22,594 bases of DNA from the IMG/VR virus record IMGVR_UViG_3300045051_000165, positions 1 through 22,594 of that record; one strand, 5' to 3'. The notes below the pieces were generated by a model. It searched no databases, was not told where the DNA came from, and saw nothing but the letters and a program-made list of their open reading frames with translations. The position numbers and the translations under genes are program-made. Each line of letters starts with the position of its first letter. Position 1 is the stretch's first letter. This DNA is from a virus. Positions 1,413 to 17,287 of this stretch are shown piece after piece.

Positions 1413-1752
1413 TCAAAACCCCCGGCCCGTAGTCGGTCGTAATTGTCGCCGTGTAGTTTAGCGCATTATCGGCCCGGGTTATGGTCAGGGAGGCAACCCC
1501 CGTTACGTGAGGTATGCCGAGCAGGGCGCGGCGCAAGGCGGCGTCGAATTGCGAAATGTTCGGCGACCCGTTCCACACGACGGCGAAATTGGGCAAGCCC
1601 TCGTCGACCGCGTACTCCATTTCGCCGCGCATGGTTTGGGCGGCTTGTTGCGCGGCCTGCATGACGGCGGCGAGGTCTTCGGCCAAGGCGAGTGACCCCG
1701 TAACCCCCACGTAAAGGTCGTTGTTCTCGTCGACTGCTAAAGTTCGCGTCAT
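1405..1752 (-). CDS. gp25-like baseplate wedge protein
   Basis: The 115-residue product has the size and layout of short T4 gp25/P2 gpW-like wedge proteins. It has a beta-rich start (LAVDENNDLYVG), a helical middle with Ala and Gln repeats, a MEYAVDEGLPNFAVVW segment and an alternating beta C-terminus. In gp25 proteins the equivalent region contacts the sheath and starts its assembly. The gene lies between the spike and the J-like wedge, which is the conserved order. It overlaps the spike gene by 4 bases and the J-like gene by 8 bases. I rely on size, order and overall pattern. The classical EPR core motif of T4 gp25 is not obvious here. Confidence 0.75.
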   Translation of the reverse strand: MTRTLAVDENNDLYVGVTGSLALAEDLAAVMQAAQQAAQTMRGEMEYAVDEGLPNFAVVWNGSPNISQFDAALRRALLGIPHVTGVASLTITRADNALNYTATITTDYGPGVLNG

Positions 1753-2507
1753 GATATCGGGCCTCCAGTGTTGCCCCCGTCGTGCTCGGGGTGCCGGTGG
1801 GTTCCAAACTCAATCCCCCCAATACGGACCCCGTCGGGAAAATCAACGTGGCCGGTAAAGGTCGTCCCCCCCGCCCCCATAGTTGCCGAGGCCCCCGTAG
1901 TCGCGAAGGTAATCCCCGACGGGGTAAGAACCGCAGAAGACGCCCCGTTTTCGAGGGAAACGTTAGCCGGGCCAACCTCGACAAACATCGTCCCTTTTGT
2001 AATCTTGACGCGATCAGGCCACACGGCCAAGCGTACAGAACCGTCAAGCGTTTGGAGTACCGCGTGGGTCGCGTCTTCTTCGGCCAAGGTGAGGCCCCGC
2101 ATTACGTCGGGGATAAAAACCGCGTCTTGGAACGAGTGCTTACGGAGGGTATTCGGCGCGCTCTCGCGGTAACTCTGCAAGAGTATGGAAATATCGCGGT
2201 CGTTGGCCTTAATCCAGCCGAGGTCGCCCGCCTTGAGGTTGAACGAGAGCGCCACGCCATCGCCGCCAAACATCATGACCGGGACGGCGGCAATTTGGGC
2301 GCGGCCTACTTGGCGGTTATCGGTCGTCAGCACTTTGACCAGGGGGACAACGGTCGCCCGGTTCGCTTGGCGGTCATAGGAGACCACGCGGGCGGGCAGC
2401 ATGTCGTCGACCTGGGCCAGGAACTTGTCGAGGATTTGGCGAGCCATGCCTAGCAACGAATCGTCGTTGGCAGGGTCGCGGGAGGGGGTGGCGTGCGGGT
2501 CGCTCAT
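1749..2507 (-). CDS. Gp138-type baseplate spike protein
   Basis: The 252-residue protein fits the Gp138 N-terminal domain family of membrane-piercing spikes. Residues about 35-125 form an OB-like beta domain, including MLPARVVSYDRQANRATVVP and a GDLGWIKANDRDIS stretch. The second half is made of short alternating beta segments rich in Gly, Thr and Val (VSLENGASSAVLT, FATTGASATM), as expected of a trimeric beta-helix. The C-terminus carries FGTHRHPEHDGG, a His-rich tip like the metal-binding apex of other spikes. It would sit at the bottom of the tail below the hub and pierce the outer membrane on contraction. It overlaps both neighbours by a few bases. Confidence 0.88.
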   Translation of the reverse strand: MSDPHATPSRDPANDDSLLGMARQILDKFLAQVDDMLPARVVSYDRQANRATVVPLVKVLTTDNRQVGRAQIAAVPVMMFGGDGVALSFNLKAGDLGWIKANDRDISILLQSYRESAPNTLRKHSFQDAVFIPDVMRGLTLAEEDATHAVLQTLDGSVRLAVWPDRVKITKGTMFVEVGPANVSLENGASSAVLTPSGITFATTGASATMGAGGTTFTGHVDFPDGVRIGGIEFGTHRHPEHDGGNTGGPIS

Positions 2508-3331
2508 TGGTTAGCCCGGGTACATTCGGCAATGTAGTAAAAAGGGGTGTCGCGGCTGGATAGTTCAAAGCCCAGCTTGAAGACAGTATAAACCCCATTG
2601 GCCGCCGGGTTTAGCTTGCTCGAAACCCGCAACCCCCCGCCGAGCGTGGTCGCGTTGTCGAACAGCATTTTTACCTTTAGGCCCTGCTCGGTAAATTCGG
2701 GGATGCCGATTAATCCCGAGTCTAGACTAAGGTCGCGAACCTGCCGCTCTAGCGCCTTGTTGAACTCTTTGACGACGAGGGTTTTATCGTCGATGTAGGC
2801 ATTAACCCGGCCCATGTTGCCGAGGTGTTCGACCTGTTTCGCCGCGCTCCCCGTGAAAGTGTAGTTCGATATTTGCTTGGCTTTCGCCTCGAAACGGAGG
2901 GCTAGCCCCAAGTCGGCCGCGACCTTGGCGGCGACGTTCCGCAAGGGGGAAATGGCCGGTTGCGACGTGGCAATAATGACCCCCTTGGCATAATCCCCGG
3001 TCGCCGCTTTGAGGGTCAAGGTAATGTCGGGGGGTTGTGCCCCGACGGCGCTCGTAATGTCCCCGGCGAATACCAGGGAGTACCCGGTACTTACGCGGCC
3101 CGCCTCCACAGTCAAAAGCTTGCGCCGCTTGTTCTTGTTAAACGGGCTGGTTTCGGTCAAGAGAAAATCGCGGGTTGCTTGGTCGAGGTTGGTTATTTTT
3201 ACTTCACACTCGTTCTGTATCGGGTTGGCGTACTTGGTCCCGCTCGCGGTCATGGCGAGGCCTTCGTAGAGCTTCAAAACGCCATTTACTTCGATGCCGA
3301 TTCGAAGTAATCGGGGGTCGAGTTCGGCCAT
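2504..3331 (-). CDS. Baseplate hub protein
   Basis: This 275-residue protein lies between the plug and the spike, the standard place of the hub (gp27/gpD-like) in DUF3383-sheath phages. The N-terminus (LRIGIEVNGVLKLYEGLAM) and the region NECEVKITNLDQATRDFLL are the start of this hub family, with a KRRKLLTVEAGR strand after it. Residues 125-215 are a helix-strand domain ending in YIDDKTLVVKEF. The end has NPAANGVYTVFKLGFELSSR, a typical last beta domain. The start ATG overlaps the plug stop as TAATG. Hubs trimerise, hold the spike and end the tail tube. The family is clear to me, and the structural role is inferred from it. Confidence 0.85.
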   Translation of the reverse strand: MAELDPRLLRIGIEVNGVLKLYEGLAMTASGTKYANPIQNECEVKITNLDQATRDFLLTETSPFNKNKRRKLLTVEAGRVSTGYSLVFAGDITSAVGAQPPDITLTLKAATGDYAKGVIIATSQPAISPLRNVAAKVAADLGLALRFEAKAKQISNYTFTGSAAKQVEHLGNMGRVNAYIDDKTLVVKEFNKALERQVRDLSLDSGLIGIPEFTEQGLKVKMLFDNATTLGGGLRVSSKLNPAANGVYTVFKLGFELSSRDTPFYYIAECTRANQ

Positions 3332-3642
3332 TACTCCCCCCGGAAGTCGGCTAATTCAGCGTCAGAAACATAGACGAGGAATTGCGTAACGCCAAATTGG
3401 TCCCAATAGGGCAGGGCGTCGTCGTCCGTTACCAAGGCGAAGTTGCCCGCCTCTTGGTATGGGTAGGGGAGCAGGGGCGACCCGGCGGTAATCCGAACGC
3501 CGGATATTACCGTTTCGCCGTCGCGGGTAATGGTCGCGGCCATAACGCCCCCTGCGTCCTTTATCTCGATTTCATAAAAGCGGCCGTCGAGTTGAACCGA
3601 TAGGGATTGATTCGGGACGGCGGCTAATCCGATTTCCATCAT
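3331..3642 (-). CDS. Phage baseplate plug protein (DUF6983-like)
   Basis: The 103-residue product resembles the small baseplate plug family found next to Dit-like and hub genes. It begins with a strand region that includes SLSVQLDGRFYEIEI, then has ITRDGETVISGVRI and the ending ALPYWDQFGVTQFLVYVSD. The family usually has about 100 residues and an LDG(R)xYx(I)xI motif like the one here. The ORF begins with two consecutive ATG codons (3642 and 3639). Either may be used, and both overlap the end of the Dit-like gene. In related particles the plug closes the tail lumen at the hub, so the same role is inferred here. Confidence 0.78.
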   Translation of the reverse strand: MMEIGLAAVPNQSLSVQLDGRFYEIEIKDAGGVMAATITRDGETVISGVRITAGSPLLPYPYQEAGNFALVTDDDALPYWDQFGVTQFLVYVSDAELADFRGE

Positions 3643-4148
3643 TTAAAAATGCTCCCGAGAATAGAGGTTTTCCGCTCGGGGGGCGGTTCGGTCGGCTGCT
3701 TTTGGCCTTGCTTGACGGTCGCGGAGTTCTTCGGCTTCTCTACCTTAACCGTGGAGAACTTCGGCGACACGAAAAGCGCCTCTTTGAGGGTAATCGCCAC
3801 GGCGACCCCGTCGAGCATTTCGGGCGTCTCGTCGTGCGGTATCTTCTCGATCAGCATGGACGGGAACGAATCGACCCGCGTTTGCACAACGAGCAATTCC
3901 CCGGCCAAGAAAAGGTCGCATATTTGCCGATAAACGGCGGGATAGTCTTCGCTCGTCAAGAGCATGGAAAGCTCAACGACGGTCGGCAAAATGATACGGT
4001 GGTCGGTTACGAGCGCGCCGGTTTCCAAAGGGTGCTCCATAGCCTTGGACCCCCTCATAACGGTAGCCTTTACCGCGCGGGCCTTCTCGAATACCTGCAC
4101 GTAGTCGGCATTGAGAACGGCGGTAACGTCCTGCGCGCCGGGGGTCAT
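3639..4148 (-). CDS. Dit-like baseplate protein (N-terminal Dit-like domain)
   Basis: The 169-residue protein follows the tape measure gene with an ATGA overlap, which is where Dit-like or tube-baseplate adaptor proteins occur. The features seen are the VTAVLNADYVQVFEKARAVK start, a HPLETGALVTDHRIILP stretch typical of this family, and the helix PAVYRQICDLFLAGELLVVQT. The last 40 residues are Lys, Pro and Gln rich and look disordered. The end of the chain is KTSILGSIFK. The protein would join the tail tube to the hub. The family call is from motif recall. No enzymatic function is expected. Confidence 0.75.
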   Translation of the reverse strand: MTPGAQDVTAVLNADYVQVFEKARAVKATVMRGSKAMEHPLETGALVTDHRIILPTVVELSMLLTSEDYPAVYRQICDLFLAGELLVVQTRVDSFPSMLIEKIPHDETPEMLDGVAVAITLKEALFVSPKFSTVKVEKPKNSATVKQGQKQPTEPPPERKTSILGSIFK

Positions 4149-12679: not shown

Positions 12680-13183
12680 TTACTCCCCTTTCAGGTGCTT
12701 GGAAACGAAGTTATCACCGCCCTTGGCCGGGTCGGCGGCGTCGAGGGCTACGGTCGGAGCCGGGACGGCCGCCGGTTTGGCTTGCAGGAAGCCCGACAGC
12801 GTGGCGACCTCGTGGCCCTTATCGGCGGCGAGGCCCAGCTTTTCGCAACCATACGCCACGACCGCGTCGAGGGTCATAGCCGAATGGTCAAAGGTTCCGA
12901 CGTGTTGCGAAATCTTCTTGGCGAGTTCGTCGCGCTTTGCCATGCGGGCAATAAATACGCTTTCGTCCATGCCGGTGCCTGCCGGGGTGCCTTCGCCGCC
13001 CTCGCCGTTGGCCGGGGTTTTGTCGGCGCCTTCGGTCGGGGTCGGGTTCGCCATCGCGGCGAGGGATTTTTGCATCTCGGCAACCTGCGCCGCAATCGGG
13101 GCGAAAGCCTTGATTGCTGCGGAGATTTCAGACAGGGACATTTCGCCGCCGCCTGCGCCGCCTTCTTCGGTTTGCTCTGCCAT
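12680..13183 (-). CDS. Probable nested in-frame scaffold protein
   Basis: Inside the fusion gene an ATG at 13183 (residue 346) is preceded by AAGGAG with a 6-base spacer (AAGGAGCTAGAAATG), a much better site than most others in this operon. It would give 167 residues from MAEQTEEGGAGGG to HLKGE, in frame with the larger gene. This resembles the lambda C/Nu3 arrangement, where a scaffold is translated from an internal start in the protease gene. The product has an acidic helical start (residues about 14-45), a Gly/Pro linker and a helical part. The internal start is seen in the sequence. Its use is inferred. Confidence 0.6.
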   Translation of the reverse strand: MAEQTEEGGAGGGEMSLSEISAAIKAFAPIAAQVAEMQKSLAAMANPTPTEGADKTPANGEGGEGTPAGTGMDESVFIARMAKRDELAKKISQHVGTFDHSAMTLDAVVAYGCEKLGLAADKGHEVATLSGFLQAKPAAVPAPTVALDAADPAKGGDNFVSKHLKGE

Positions 13184-14218
13184 TTCTAGCTCCTTGGAGT
13201 CAAAAGTAAATGTGAAGTGGTCCATAACGGCCACGTCAGGCCCCATGCGTCCCTCGACAACGAGGGCTAGATGGTTCCCGCGTATATTACGCTGAATTGC
13301 GTCATAGCGTAAGCCGTTCCAAACGCCCGCCGTCATATCGTATATGCAGCGATACCCGGCGGAAAGTTCGCGTTTTCCCGCCTCAATGAGGGCGGCCAGG
13401 GTCGAGGAGAAGGCCTTTATGTTCCCGTACAACGTGCCGTCTTTGTAAAAAACATCCTCGCCGATAACCCCTTGAACCCCCTTTTTCTCAGCAGGCAACG
13501 CGCGGTCGGTCAATTCCTGGGCAACCGGGCCTAACATTACGTGTTCGTCAATCCAGGGCAGGAGCTTGAACGAATCGACGCACTCGGGAGCCCCGAGTTC
13601 TTCCGGCGGGCGGAGGACTTGAAAAATTTTGTCGGCGTCTTCGCCCGTCAGGCCAAGCTGACGACCCGAGTACGGGAAAATCCCCGCCTTGCTGATCGGG
13701 TTGGCTTTGATTTCATACCATCCATTGCTGTCGTATTCGCGGGCGTCCATCCCCATACCAAGCGGCGGGAGGGCGGCCAGGGTTGCGGCGACGCCCGGGT
13801 GCAGAGGTTGCGGGAGGGCGGCCAGCGGTGCCCACACATAACCCAAATGCTCGTCGTTGAGGACAGGTGCGAAAGGTTCGGCGACGGTCAGGGTAAAGGT
13901 AACGAAGCCGTCGGCATAGTCGAGCAGGCAAAGCGGCGCGGCCGGGGCTTGCCCGATTTCCTCTTGGCACTCCCGGATTGCGGCTTGCTCGGCGGTCTCG
14001 CCGTCCTCAACGCCGCCGCCAGGAAACCCCCAATGCAACGGGAAGTCGCGAGTATTACCCGAGCGCAGCAAGAGCAAGACCGAGTCGCCGCAACGGTACA
14101 GAACCCCCGCCCCAGCGTGGCTGCCTTGGACAAGCCCCCGGGCGATTACCGCCGCCCGTTCCGCCTCGACCCCTTGGCGATACAGGGATACAAAAATGTC
14201 GTCGGTAACGAGAGGCAT
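12680..14218 (-). CDS. Nudix-DUF2213 fusion: head maturation protease with acidic C-terminal scaffold
   Basis: Three parts are visible in 512 residues. Residues about 25-150 are a Nudix hydrolase domain with the box G-x5-E-x7-RE-x2-EE-x-G at 68-90 (REcqEEiG). Residues about 155-345 are a DUF2213-type head protease domain, with YEIKANPISKAGIFPYSGRQ, LSAGYRCIYD near 285 and RGNHLALVVEGR near 313. The rest is a low-complexity acidic region rich in Ala, Gly, Glu and Pro, as in phage scaffolds. The protease trims the scaffold during head maturation. What the Nudix domain hydrolyses is unknown. The Nudix box has Cys and Gln at two usually hydrophobic sites, but the metal-binding Glu residues are present. 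Confidence 0.85.
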   Translation of the reverse strand: MPLVTDDIFVSLYRQGVEAERAAVIARGLVQGSHAGAGVLYRCGDSVLLLLRSGNTRDFPLHWGFPGGGVEDGETAEQAAIRECQEEIGQAPAAPLCLLDYADGFVTFTLTVAEPFAPVLNDEHLGYVWAPLAALPQPLHPGVAATLAALPPLGMGMDAREYDSNGWYEIKANPISKAGIFPYSGRQLGLTGEDADKIFQVLRPPEELGAPECVDSFKLLPWIDEHVMLGPVAQELTDRALPAEKKGVQGVIGEDVFYKDGTLYGNIKAFSSTLAALIEAGKRELSAGYRCIYDMTAGVWNGLRYDAIQRNIRGNHLALVVEGRMGPDVAVMDHFTFTFDSKELEMAEQTEEGGAGGGEMSLSEISAAIKAFAPIAAQVAEMQKSLAAMANPTPTEGADKTPANGEGGEGTPAGTGMDESVFIARMAKRDELAKKISQHVGTFDHSAMTLDAVVAYGCEKLGLAADKGHEVATLSGFLQAKPAAVPAPTVALDAADPAKGGDNFVSKHLKGE

Positions 14219-14227
14219 AGAAAGTCC

Positions 14228-14506
14228 TTAGAAAATAGGCGGGGAAACGAAAACGCCGCCCTCGCCGACGGCTTGGTTTTGACCCGTGGCGACGGCCCGG
14301 TAAGCATACGTTCCCGCCTTCGCCAAGTCTAGGTCGAAGTAGTGGAGTCCGACGCCAGTATTAACCACGATGGCGAGGGCCGTCGTTCCGTCAGGGTCTT
14401 GAACCGTAACGGCGAGCGCGGTCGGGTTGGCGAGGTTCCCGTTAATATCCCGAGTCGTAATCTCGACGCGAACCGCGTCCCCGACAGTGAGAGGTTCGCA
14501 ACTCAT
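14228..14506 (-). CDS. Small Ig-like/beta-sandwich virion protein
   Basis: The 92-residue product starts MSCEPLTVGDAVRVEITTRD and contains NPTALAVTVQDPDGTTALAI and GLHYFDLDLAKAGTYAYRAV, ending GGVFVSPPIF. The strand-loop-strand pattern with GTYxYR and a DPDG turn looks like a small Ig-like domain, known in virion decoration proteins. Its start overlaps the stop of the LamG-repeat gene (ATGA). No enzymatic motif is present. I read it as a small head decoration or fibre-associated protein, but the exact family is not known to me. Confidence 0.65.
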   Translation of the reverse strand: MSCEPLTVGDAVRVEITTRDINGNLANPTALAVTVQDPDGTTALAIVVNTGVGLHYFDLDLAKAGTYAYRAVATGQNQAVGEGGVFVSPPIF

Positions 14507-15966
14507 AGCGGTTTGACCTCGAAAGTAATGGTTCCAATTTTCCGCATATTACCCGAAATTCTCCCCCGGGCGCGCGGGGTCAAGCAAAGCTCGCCGGGAA
14601 CCGCCGGAACTTGACCCGAAAGGAAAGCCATGCTCCCGACCGTCGAAGCGAGCAGGGCGGCAACCGAGAAGCGAGGCGACGGAGCAAAGGCCATACTCCC
14701 AACCGCCGGGGCTAGTTGCGCGGCAACGGTAAAGACCGGTTGCGACTTGAACGCTTGGGAGCCAACGACGGGGGCGGTTTGGGCCGTAACCGCCAAACGG
14801 GACGAGGGGCCGAACGACATCGCGCCCCTGGTTGGGGCGGTTTGGGCCGCGACGGCAAACCTCGGTTGCGCGGCGAAAGCCATGTTCCCGACCGTCGCCC
14901 CCGTGGTGGCGTTGATAGCAACGCGCGCCGAGGGGCCGAACGACATCGCCCCCACGACGGCGGCCGTCAGAGCATTGACCGCAAAGGCCGGTTGCGACTT
15001 GAACGCTTGGGAGCCTAGGGTTTGCCCGGTTGTTGCCGCAACGGTAAAGACGGGTTGCGACTTGAACGCTTGGGAGCCAACGACGGGGGCGGTTTGGGCC
15101 GTAACCGCGACCCGAGAGGCAGGGCCGAACGACATCGCACCAACGACGGCGGCCGTCAGAGCATTGACCGCAAAGGCCGGTTGCGACTTGAACGCCTGGG
15201 AGCCAACGACGGGGGCGGTTTGCGCGGATACGGCCAGCGAGGCCCCGGCGGCGGCAGAGGCCTTTAAAAGCGCAACGTTCGGGGCCGCCTTGAAGATTTG
15301 CCAGGGGTTATTCGAGAAGGATTTGACCTCGGCAGCCGATAGCGCCCGCGCCCACAAGGGCATGAGCAGAACGCTACCGTTCGGTGACGTAGAGTCCGGA
15401 TTACCGAACGCCCCATACCGCGAAAAGGTATCGTAGCTCGGGTTGGCCGACAAGGCCCCGGAGGCAAAGGCCGCGCCGTTGTCATATCCGACGAGGGTCG
15501 AGCCGTTGGCAACAAGACCGAAAACCCCTTGACCTGCCGACCATACGCCCGACTCAACCGAAGCCCCGCCGCAATAAACGCGCCTCCCCCGGGAGCCATA
15601 GGCCGCGTAGAGCAAATATCCGTTGTTGCCCGACGTGTAGCCCGCAACAGGGGAAGACCCCGCCGCCGTGCCAATCTCCCCGACGAGGAAGAACGACAGG
15701 GGAAGGGCGGTAATTTTGGCGTGTTGAAATGAGTTGGCCGACCCATTATTGCGCGCCCCGTACACCCCGTTGCTGCCCGCCGTAGCGATGACTCGCCCGA
15801 CCCCCTTCGGCGTGGCTTGCAGGGCGGCCCCGGTAATGCCTGGGGCATCCTTGGCGAGCAGGTCGAAGGGGTGTCCGTTCCCGCACCATAGGACGGAAAC
15901 AAGCCCCCGGGTTAGGGGGTTCGACCAATCAATTTGAACGCCCGCCGGGGGTTGCGAATACCGCAT
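14503..15966 (-). CDS. LamG/concanavalin-like virion protein with ten 21-residue repeats
   Basis: The 487-residue protein has two regions. Residues 1-240 resemble LamG (concanavalin-like) domains of phage proteins, with ALPLSFFLVGEIGTAAG, LLMPLWARALSAAEVKSFS and NPWQIFKAAPN near 220-230. The NPWQ(I/L)F motif is a well-known end of these domains. Residues 244-453 are ten repeats of 21 residues. The consensus is AVxAQTAPVVGSQAFKSQP and differs slightly between copies. The last 34 residues are basic, including TPRARGRISGNMRK. Such proteins bind glycans or other surface ligands. It lies among head genes, not near the tail fibres, so it may be a head fibre or decoration. Start has no clear Shine-Dalgarno; ATG 15966 is 1 base after the upstream stop. 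Confidence 0.8.
   Translation of the reverse strand: MRYSQPPAGVQIDWSNPLTRGLVSVLWCGNGHPFDLLAKDAPGITGAALQATPKGVGRVIATAGSNGVYGARNNGSANSFQHAKITALPLSFFLVGEIGTAAGSSPVAGYTSGNNGYLLYAAYGSRGRRVYCGGASVESGVWSAGQGVFGLVANGSTLVGYDNGAAFASGALSANPSYDTFSRYGAFGNPDSTSPNGSVLLMPLWARALSAAEVKSFSNNPWQIFKAAPNVALLKASAAAGASLAVSAQTAPVVGSQAFKSQPAFAVNALTAAVVGAMSFGPASRVAVTAQTAPVVGSQAFKSQPVFTVAATTGQTLGSQAFKSQPAFAVNALTAAVVGAMSFGPSARVAINATTGATVGNMAFAAQPRFAVAAQTAPTRGAMSFGPSSRLAVTAQTAPVVGSQAFKSQPVFTVAAQLAPAVGSMAFAPSPRFSVAALLASTVGSMAFLSGQVPAVPGELCLTPRARGRISGNMRKIGTITFEVKPL
14608..15237 (-). repeat. Ten in-frame 63-bp tandem repeats within the LamG-type gene
   Basis: Ten units of 63 bases encode ten 21-residue repeats. Units differ by substitutions, but long blocks are nearly identical, for example the blocks beginning at 14738 and 15053, which are 315 bases (five units) apart. 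The repeats are all in frame, so gain or loss of a unit would keep the frame. Confidence 0.9.
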
Positions 15967-15967
15967 G

Positions 15968-16330
15968 TTAGATGCCGGTTAGCTCTTGGCCGAAGGCTTC
16001 GGCGGTAATGCCGTTGGTCGCCCCGTTGGTAATCGTTACGTTCGCAAACATGGCCGACGGGGGCAACTCGACCGGGAAATTCATGGGGTAATCGCCCGCC
16101 GTAACGCTTCCCGAGAACTTGGCGAACAGGTATTTTTTGCCCGTTGCATCGCCGGTATAAACAGAAACCGTCGGTACGGTCGTAGGGGCGGAACCCGGGA
16201 GCGACAATTGAACGTTGAGAAGCCCGCCGTAAGCCGTCGACAGGTTCCACTCCGAGGCGTTGAGGGAAGCATTAGCGGCAATTGAGCTTCCCGCCGCGAT
16301 AAGTTGCCGTTGGGTTTTTGTAGCCGCCAT
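15968..16330 (-). CDS. Small virion protein, 120 residues
   Basis: The product starts MAATKTQRQLIAAGSSIA, contains STAYGGLLNVQLSLPGSAP, VSVYTGDATGKKYLFAKF and FPVELPPSAMFANVTITNG, and ends FGQELTGI. It is mostly beta with Gly/Ala/Thr turns, as in virion proteins. The start overlaps the stop of the 149-residue gene (TAATG). A GGGAG site is 9 bases upstream. I do not recognise the family. Its order among head genes suggests that it is part of the virion or assists assembly of the LamG-type protein that follows it. Confidence 0.65.
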   Translation of the reverse strand: MAATKTQRQLIAAGSSIAANASLNASEWNLSTAYGGLLNVQLSLPGSAPTTVPTVSVYTGDATGKKYLFAKFSGSVTAGDYPMNFPVELPPSAMFANVTITNGATNGITAEAFGQELTGI

Positions 16331-16779
16331 TATTTCGCGCTCCCGTCGTCGTTAAAGAGGGCCTCGGCAACTTCCCGCACCCCGACCGAATCGGGGCGTT
16401 CCGCAAGGGCTTTGACCTTGTTGACGTCGGCCTGGGGAAGAACGCCCGCCCCGGCAAGTCCGTCAAGTAGGAGGCGGGTTGTCGGTGCGCCCACGTCGAG
16501 GCCGCTTGTTTTGAGCCAAGCCACGCCCCGGCGGATTGCGCCGAAACAAGGCTGAAGCGGGGGCGGAAGGTCGGCGGCCGTCTTGATGTTTTCCAAGGCC
16601 GACAAAAAGGCGTCCCCTTGAATCGGCCCCAAGGCATCCAGAATCCCCCGCTCCCCAACCTCGTGAGATACGGCACGAATCCGCCCGACAGACATCGCCG
16701 CCGCGAGGGTTTCGCAATCCCTCGCCGCGACCGCTTCGGCCAAATCCGGCCGGTTTAGGATGTCTTCGCGGAGGCCCAT
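16330..16779 (-). CDS. Hypothetical protein, 149 residues, all-helical
   Basis: This protein starts MGLREDILNRPDLAEAVAARD and is rich in Ala, Leu and Arg with SVGRIRAVSHEVGERGILDAL and FLSALENIKTAADLPP helices. The last part is a helical domain with LLLDGLAGAGVLPQADVNKV. Proteins of this shape occur in many phage head operons next to small virion proteins, but I cannot give a function. It begins just after the stop of the 123-residue gene (1 base) and is followed by a TAATG overlap, so it belongs to a tight operon. It has no Shine-Dalgarno of note besides a GAAGG sequence. Confidence 0.6.
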   Translation of the reverse strand: MGLREDILNRPDLAEAVAARDCETLAAAMSVGRIRAVSHEVGERGILDALGPIQGDAFLSALENIKTAADLPPPLQPCFGAIRRGVAWLKTSGLDVGAPTTRLLLDGLAGAGVLPQADVNKVKALAERPDSVGVREVAEALFNDDGSAK

Positions 16780-16780
16780 T

Positions 16781-17152
16781 TTAGGCGTTGCCTTCGGTCA
16801 GGGTCGCGCCGACGGTATAGGTAATGTCGACGCCCGTTACGACGTTGCCGGTAAAGGTACAGTCCGTACCTACGAGGTAAGTAGCTACGGCGGCATCCGC
16901 CGAGGTCGTAACGAGGACAAAGGTCGGCGTTCCGTTGACGTGCGTGGCGTTGTTCTGCGTTACGGTTTCGTTCAAGTCGATAACGCCGCCCGTGGCCGTA
17001 CCGAGCGCGCCGGTTACGTTCAAGGTTGCCAAGAGCGTACCGGCCGGGGCGAGCGATTCGGCCCCGGTGTAAAACTTGAGTTTCGGGTTCGTACCCGCCG
17101 CCGCGATGATGTCGCCCGCGCGAGTGTTGCGAAGTGCCGTCGTGAGTTTCAT
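16781..17152 (-). CDS. Small phage virion-associated protein, 123 residues
   Basis: It starts MKLTTALRNTRAGDIIAAAG and contains LKFYTGAESLAPAGTLLATLN, ending with YTVGATLTEGNA. The pattern of a helical start, YTGA, LLATL and a final EGNA is widespread in phage virion proteins that I know as small decoration-like or fibre-like beta proteins. A strong AGGAGGCGG Shine-Dalgarno precedes the ATG. That site overlaps the stop of the possible 40-residue ORF upstream. The function is inferred from context to be structural. Confidence 0.68.
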   Translation of the reverse strand: MKLTTALRNTRAGDIIAAAGTNPKLKFYTGAESLAPAGTLLATLNVTGALGTATGGVIDLNETVTQNNATHVNGTPTFVLVTTSADAAVATYLVGTDCTFTGNVVTGVDITYTVGATLTEGNA

Positions 17153-17164
17153 TTGAACCGCCTC

Positions 17165-17287
17165 CTAAAGTGAATAGCCGCAGTATAAACCGAACCAATC
17201 AAACGCGGGGACATCGAACGCCCCCGCCGCCAAGCTCGCTTCCCAATAAAACGGCCAGGAGAGCGAGGCCCTAACCCCCGTCGGCAT
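17165..17287 (-). CDS. Candidate 40-residue protein
   Basis: The minus-strand ATG at 17287 lies inside the end of the gpF-like gene in another frame and opens a 40-residue frame: it starts [20 protein letters not shown] and continues with AGAFDVPAFDWFGLYCGYSL. The pattern WEASL, AFDxxAF and aromatic residues is like the tiny proteins known in similar places in other phage head operons. Its TAG stop sits directly in the Shine-Dalgarno of the next gene, a good sign of a real coupled reading frame. It lacks a strong ribosome site of its own, so it would depend on coupling. Chance occurrence cannot be ruled out at this length. Confidence 0.45.
   Translation of the reverse strand: MPTGVRASLSWPFYWEASLAAGAFDVPAFDWFGLYCGYSL

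Follow-up and report, generated by a model that had tools for sequence, protein, structure and literature searches.

A phage LamG protein with a 21-residue repeat array: a putative surface protein with a conserved base and an exchangeable tail

The locus considered here raises the question of what a protein composed of a LamG-like domain and a long array of short repeats might do among phage head genes, and which of its two parts would face the host. The gene, at positions 14503-15966 on the minus strand, encodes 487 residues and lies in a window (the whole stretch of DNA analysed) of 22,594 nucleotides from the IMG/VR virus record IMGVR_UViG_3300045051_000165. The first-pass annotation of this DNA had read the protein as a regular fibrous stalk carrying the LamG domain at one end. 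Here, we describe the two parts of the protein and its viral relatives, and argue for a reading that we hold to be about evenly poised between right and wrong, namely that it is an accessory virion-surface protein with a LamG base and an exchangeable repeat array as its outer part.

The N-terminal part (15262-15966, minus strand; residues 1-235, closing with NPWQIFKA) is a LamG or ConA-like jelly-roll domain, as the first-pass annotation had correctly proposed. A Pfam profile search with the window protein alone returned no match; Laminin_G_3 (PF13385) is matched by 27 of 45 aligned relatives, and an AlphaFold2 model built on the 45 aligned sequences has an N-terminal ConA-like jelly roll mostly at pLDDT 70-97. 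Foldseek matched it to ConA-like domains in the PDB with a probability of 1.00, as well as to viral LamG proteins, the alignments to solved structures reaching little past the jelly roll. When aligned with viral LamG proteins, the window domain shows the family ending NPWQ-F. By sequence, a PDB search gave no match for the window protein, while tblastn of the gene against 50,697 phage records gave nothing at 1e-5 and, at E = 10, only a weak 35-residue piece of LamG. The PDB matches included many toxin and sialidase chains of clostridia, which were set aside as sharing a generic ConA-like fold only (8-19% identity, TM ~0.3), with no toxicity implied.

Behind this domain lie ten tandem units of 21 residues (63 nucleotides) each, at 14620-15249 on the minus strand (residues 240-449), as had been noticed earlier at 14608-15237, a placement shifted by 12 nucleotides. 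For the tail, the best periodicity score reaches 362, whereas 20 shuffles gave at most 46; the DNA self-identity rises to about 0.51 at lags of 63, 126, 189, 252 and 315, all multiples of 63, and is about 0.29 at the others tried. With its default threshold, Tandem Repeats Finder did not detect the array, because most pairs of units reach a DNA similarity of only about 50%; judged from the nucleotides, the array is a diverged one with a few recent copies. Two exact runs mark these copies. A run of 56 nucleotides at lag 315, the distance at which near-identical blocks had been reported, joins unit 3 (15061-15123, minus strand) and unit 8 (14746-14808, minus strand), which are near-identical (56/63 nucleotides, 7 differing), and a run of 53 nucleotides at lag 189, missing from the earlier account, joins unit 2 (15124-15186, minus strand) and unit 5 (14935-14997, minus strand), which are identical in protein and differ by two silent changes (61/63 nucleotides). 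These near-identical pairs support the earlier suggestion of recent duplication inside the gene. The two sorts of unit then described are both present (GSQAFKSQP and GAMSFGPS), but intermediates such as GNMAFAAQP and GSMAFAPSP make them a graded set rather than clean classes. Between units, dN is lower than dS (0 versus 0.12, 0.06 versus 0.30 and 0.18 versus 0.77), and the protein sequence of the units is therefore constrained. Minisatellite drift is ruled out by this difference together with a period that is held across unrelated sequences, as described below. The array is followed by a non-repetitive C-terminus of 38 residues and the stop codon (14503-14619, minus strand; pLDDT <50).

The gene sits in a head-gene neighbourhood. 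In the order of transcription, the small and large terminase, portal and gpF genes are followed by genes of 123, 149 and 120 residues, the LamG-repeat gene, a 92-residue gene, and then the Nudix-DUF2213 head protease, cement protein and major capsid protein. The 123-residue product (16781-17152, minus strand) weakly matches the head-class family phrog_3758 (virion structural protein), and the 92-residue gene (14228-14506, minus strand), whose start overlaps the LamG stop, has a weak MG2/Ig-like match. Leptolyngbya phage Lbo-JY16 has a capsid protein 53% identical to the one encoded here, and among the matches listed the next named phages follow at about 48-51%. In Lbo-JY16 nothing is inserted between gpF and protease; in Burkholderia phage Bm1 the space is taken by different small genes, and the LamG insertion is missing as well. 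Uncultured relatives with an 83% identical terminase have the site empty (L006) or filled by a 97-residue gene (L004); in L007, also a close relative, the slot contains a different protein of 720 residues (1697-3856). As close relatives have empty or other content at this site, the five genes are an accessory insertion at a variable position. Two further features of the region can be recorded: the Nudix domain is fused to the DUF2213 head protease (12680-14218), whereas the two are separate neighbouring genes in Bm1, and a terminator-like hairpin lies between gpF and the first insertion gene (17205-17227, minus strand), in a region where terminator-like sites are about as numerous as in shuffles.

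Nothing very close to the window gene was found, and the 120-residue gene directly upstream (15968-16330, minus strand) served as the lead to its wider family. This gene also precedes LamG in L034, L035 and L036 (50-58% identity), and a profile of their LamG domains led to 80 viral loci. Relatives of the 149-residue gene (16330-16779, minus strand) lie about 370-530 nucleotides upstream of LamG at many loci; both small genes precede LamG in unrelated phages too, frequently though not universally. The survey set comprised 78 LamG ORFs less than 80% identical to one another, in which a C-terminal extension of at least 60 residues is present in 57 and absent in 21. Tandem repeats occur in 48 of the 57 extensions, and in 43 of these 48 the best period is 20-24 residues or double that. 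The unit sequences are mostly unrelated between tails, examples being TETGAAADSQ... in L036 (20 residues), HALLANDLQSTSSVQ... in L081 (22), ITVSGYAPT... in L045 (24) and GSLAVTEASDSLAATGALALA in L109 (21). As a local control, 32 of 628 other ORFs of at least 150 residues were periodic, and those with a period of 20-24 or 42 were mostly separate genes right after LamG or a second repeat gene at the locus. A separate repeat gene lies directly downstream in 11 of the 19 extension-less LamG genes with downstream sequence, so that the fused and neighbour-gene arrangements agree. The window protein has both features of the class, an N-terminal LamG with NPWQ-F and a C-terminal array within the 20-24 period. 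The LamG nearest to its own (L040, 43% identity) carries a tail of 22-residue units of another flavour. Tails tested against Pfam and PHROG gave no clear match to a named family, no account of 21- or 22-residue phage repeats was found in the limited literature searched, and a prophage search of genome contigs gave a single marginal match.

Several loci show departures from this layout. At L001 (3350-4207 and 4209-4997) and L032 (2154-2996 and 3001-4143), relatives that are 50% identical, the LamG and repeat ORFs are in different frames, with TGACATG in both and an Fn3-like domain seemingly split across the junction, an arrangement that could reflect re-initiation or programmed frameshifting. 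L043 (919-6556) and L046 (979-6532) each have three LamG genes in tandem, the repeat tail being on the last only. In L036, L052, L061 and L104, a short motif like AENRTLxxxAENR stands at the C-terminus after several unrelated tails. The LamG protein of L089 (3962-6388) has a tail with a period of 14 residues (ADSDQRWSVLNAAL), perhaps a coiled coil instead of a beta-type tail.

How the tails change is best seen where related phages are aligned across the LamG border. Among 22 pairs of phages, found through LamG and required to be similar to within 30 nucleotides of its end, DNA similarity running from upstream into LamG stops no more than 40 nucleotides from the LamG end in 18, a count that does not represent 18 independent events since several pairs share members. 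L052 and L070 are 94% identical in DNA over 1.6 kb, up to 35 nucleotides past LamG, and have tails of 800 and 1583 nucleotides. The LamG domains of L052 and L057 are 93% identical and their tails 29%, with the converse found in L064 and L113 (tails 58%, LamG domains 41%). The first-pass annotation had expected repeat number or length to vary among homologues. Length does vary, from no tail to more than 600 residues, but mostly through replacement of the whole tail, the nearest pairs keeping theirs (331 and 331 residues in L068 and L080; 528 and 517 in L070 and L094). Because similarity stops at the domain border and close pairs keep their tail length, the tail is usually replaced whole; on these alignments it appears to be exchanged as a block, and change in copy number would not be the main pattern. 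The combination of a conserved N-terminus and an exchanged C-terminus was observed among the relatives rather than for the window phage.

This pattern bears on which end of the protein would face outwards. Phage receptor-binding proteins follow a rule by which the end that is conserved and co-inherited sits on the virion (PMC10684548), which is why we take LamG to be the base, with the repeats forming the outer part. LamG travels with the upstream genes, homology breaks at its border and the C-termini have no common anchor, all of which suggests that LamG is on the virion side. In the opposite arrangement, the C-terminus would fasten the array to the virion as a stalk, with LamG at the tip as a sugar-binding head. 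Sugar binding is frequent among LamG and ConA folds, and the ConA-like match found here fits such a role. There is also precedent in the bacterial Periscope proteins, whose tandem arrays lift an N-terminal ligand-binding domain (PMC8201768). A C-terminal anchor should nevertheless be conserved, yet the tail C-termini differ widely; LamG is the common part, inherited with neighbouring genes, and roughly a quarter of the LamG ORFs (21/78) have no fused stalk. We consider the stalk arrangement doubtful. What stands of the first-pass annotation is a LamG domain with a regular repeat tail among head genes; its placing of the N-terminal, upstream-inherited LamG at the far end of a stalk is not supported, and it probably has the wrong end outward.

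Whether the tail is folded at all is a separate matter. It could be a flexible, largely unfolded spacer or brush, its common period a by-product of array growth, and the low AlphaFold2 confidence of the tails and the abundance of Ala, Ser, Thr and Gly in many of them would agree with this. The tail of the window protein is modelled at pLDDT of only ~50-70, yet with a strand at 264, 285, 306, 327, 348, 369, 390, 411 and 432, exactly every 21 residues; the recurring strands are what the earlier prediction of a regular fold had anticipated, although at this confidence the model leaves such a fold weakly supported. Hydrophobic and polar residues alternate visibly in the units, the period stays at 20-24 across unrelated sequences and dN is lower than dS, all of which argue against a brush, and we regard it as unlikely. 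The tail model of L081 has strands about every 22 residues at pLDDT 40-60, below that of the window tail; the two models do not support one fold common to both flavours, their strand patterns differing and confidence being low. That the protein lies off the virion surface, as an assembly factor or internal protein with repeats serving head assembly, would fit a gene between those for portal/gpF and protease but is very improbable, as relatives that have these head genes lack the LamG gene, tail swapping is typical of host-facing proteins (PMC10684548), and a repeat protein in phage OANV2 adjoins a tailspike.

We therefore return to the surface protein with a LamG base, for which virion presence, orientation, fibre shape and adhesion are what we infer from the gene and its relatives. 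The N-terminal jelly roll would be a conserved base co-inherited with neighbouring virion genes, and the ten-unit, beta-rich array would form the elongated outer part, as one member of a large set of interchangeable tails built from units of about 20-24 residues. New tails would arise mainly by recombination at the LamG/tail border, with duplication within the array (units 2 and 5, 3 and 8) as a slower second process. Ahead of engagement by the tail proper, such a protein would probably cling to the host surface or other polymers, or brush against them. The 'head' assignment may itself be wrong, because a tail-type gene follows a few positions downstream in L035, and the neighbours of OANV2 gp11 are tail genes. 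The window gene alone would be one more member; it is the unrelated tails with a common unit length, exchanged exactly at the border, that form the notable pattern. Tentatively, they may represent a class of phage surface appendage that is widespread and so far undescribed, in which a conserved LamG base takes exchangeable tails under one rule of a ~22-residue (20-24) unit. If so, tails of unrelated origin could plug onto the same base or be encoded adjacent to it. The period common to unrelated repeats suggests a single structural constraint, such as, perhaps, one coil or rise per unit, and a plug-in tail system in many uncultured phages; if the tails are on the particle surface, one could read from them what different phages need to touch.

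Known systems offer partial parallels. In adenovirus-type triple beta-spiral shafts, short beta units of ~15-22 residues build a fibre, a likeness in unit type for which no sequence or fold match was found. Each unit of a Periscope protein is a folded domain of far more than 21 residues. Those proteins resemble the present one as surface proteins with tandem arrays of similar units and near-identical DNA copies, but their array lifts a ligand-binding domain and changes in copy number, versus block replacement here (PMC8201768). In gp11 of the cultured Octadecabacter podophage OANV2 (MW805364.1), a 22-residue array like that of L081 lies next to virion genes, behind another N-terminal domain instead of LamG; 13 of the first 17 residues are common to gp11 and its tailspike neighbour, and by analogy this layout supports the reading of a LamG base with repeats outward. 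The gp11 gene (L121, 6320-7846) is annotated as 'ribonuclease E', probably a misannotation of this repeat protein. Phage tail fibres and tailspikes show domain mosaicism, with a conserved N-terminus and an exchanged C-terminus (PMC10684548); the sharp break and non-homologous C-terminal parts in close relatives are alike, whereas here the conserved part is LamG, the exchanged part is an array of near-constant unit length, and the gene is among head genes in the window and several loci read. The head filament candidate gp76 of phiCbK (PMC3556154), a Gly-rich protein of 2,799 residues, differs in size, composition and the central position of its ConA-like lectin domain, and the likeness is one of domain and location. 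With that domain, a tandem duplication, a place near head genes and a proposed role as a host-touching head appendage, it is the closest functional parallel to a head appendage of the kind proposed here.
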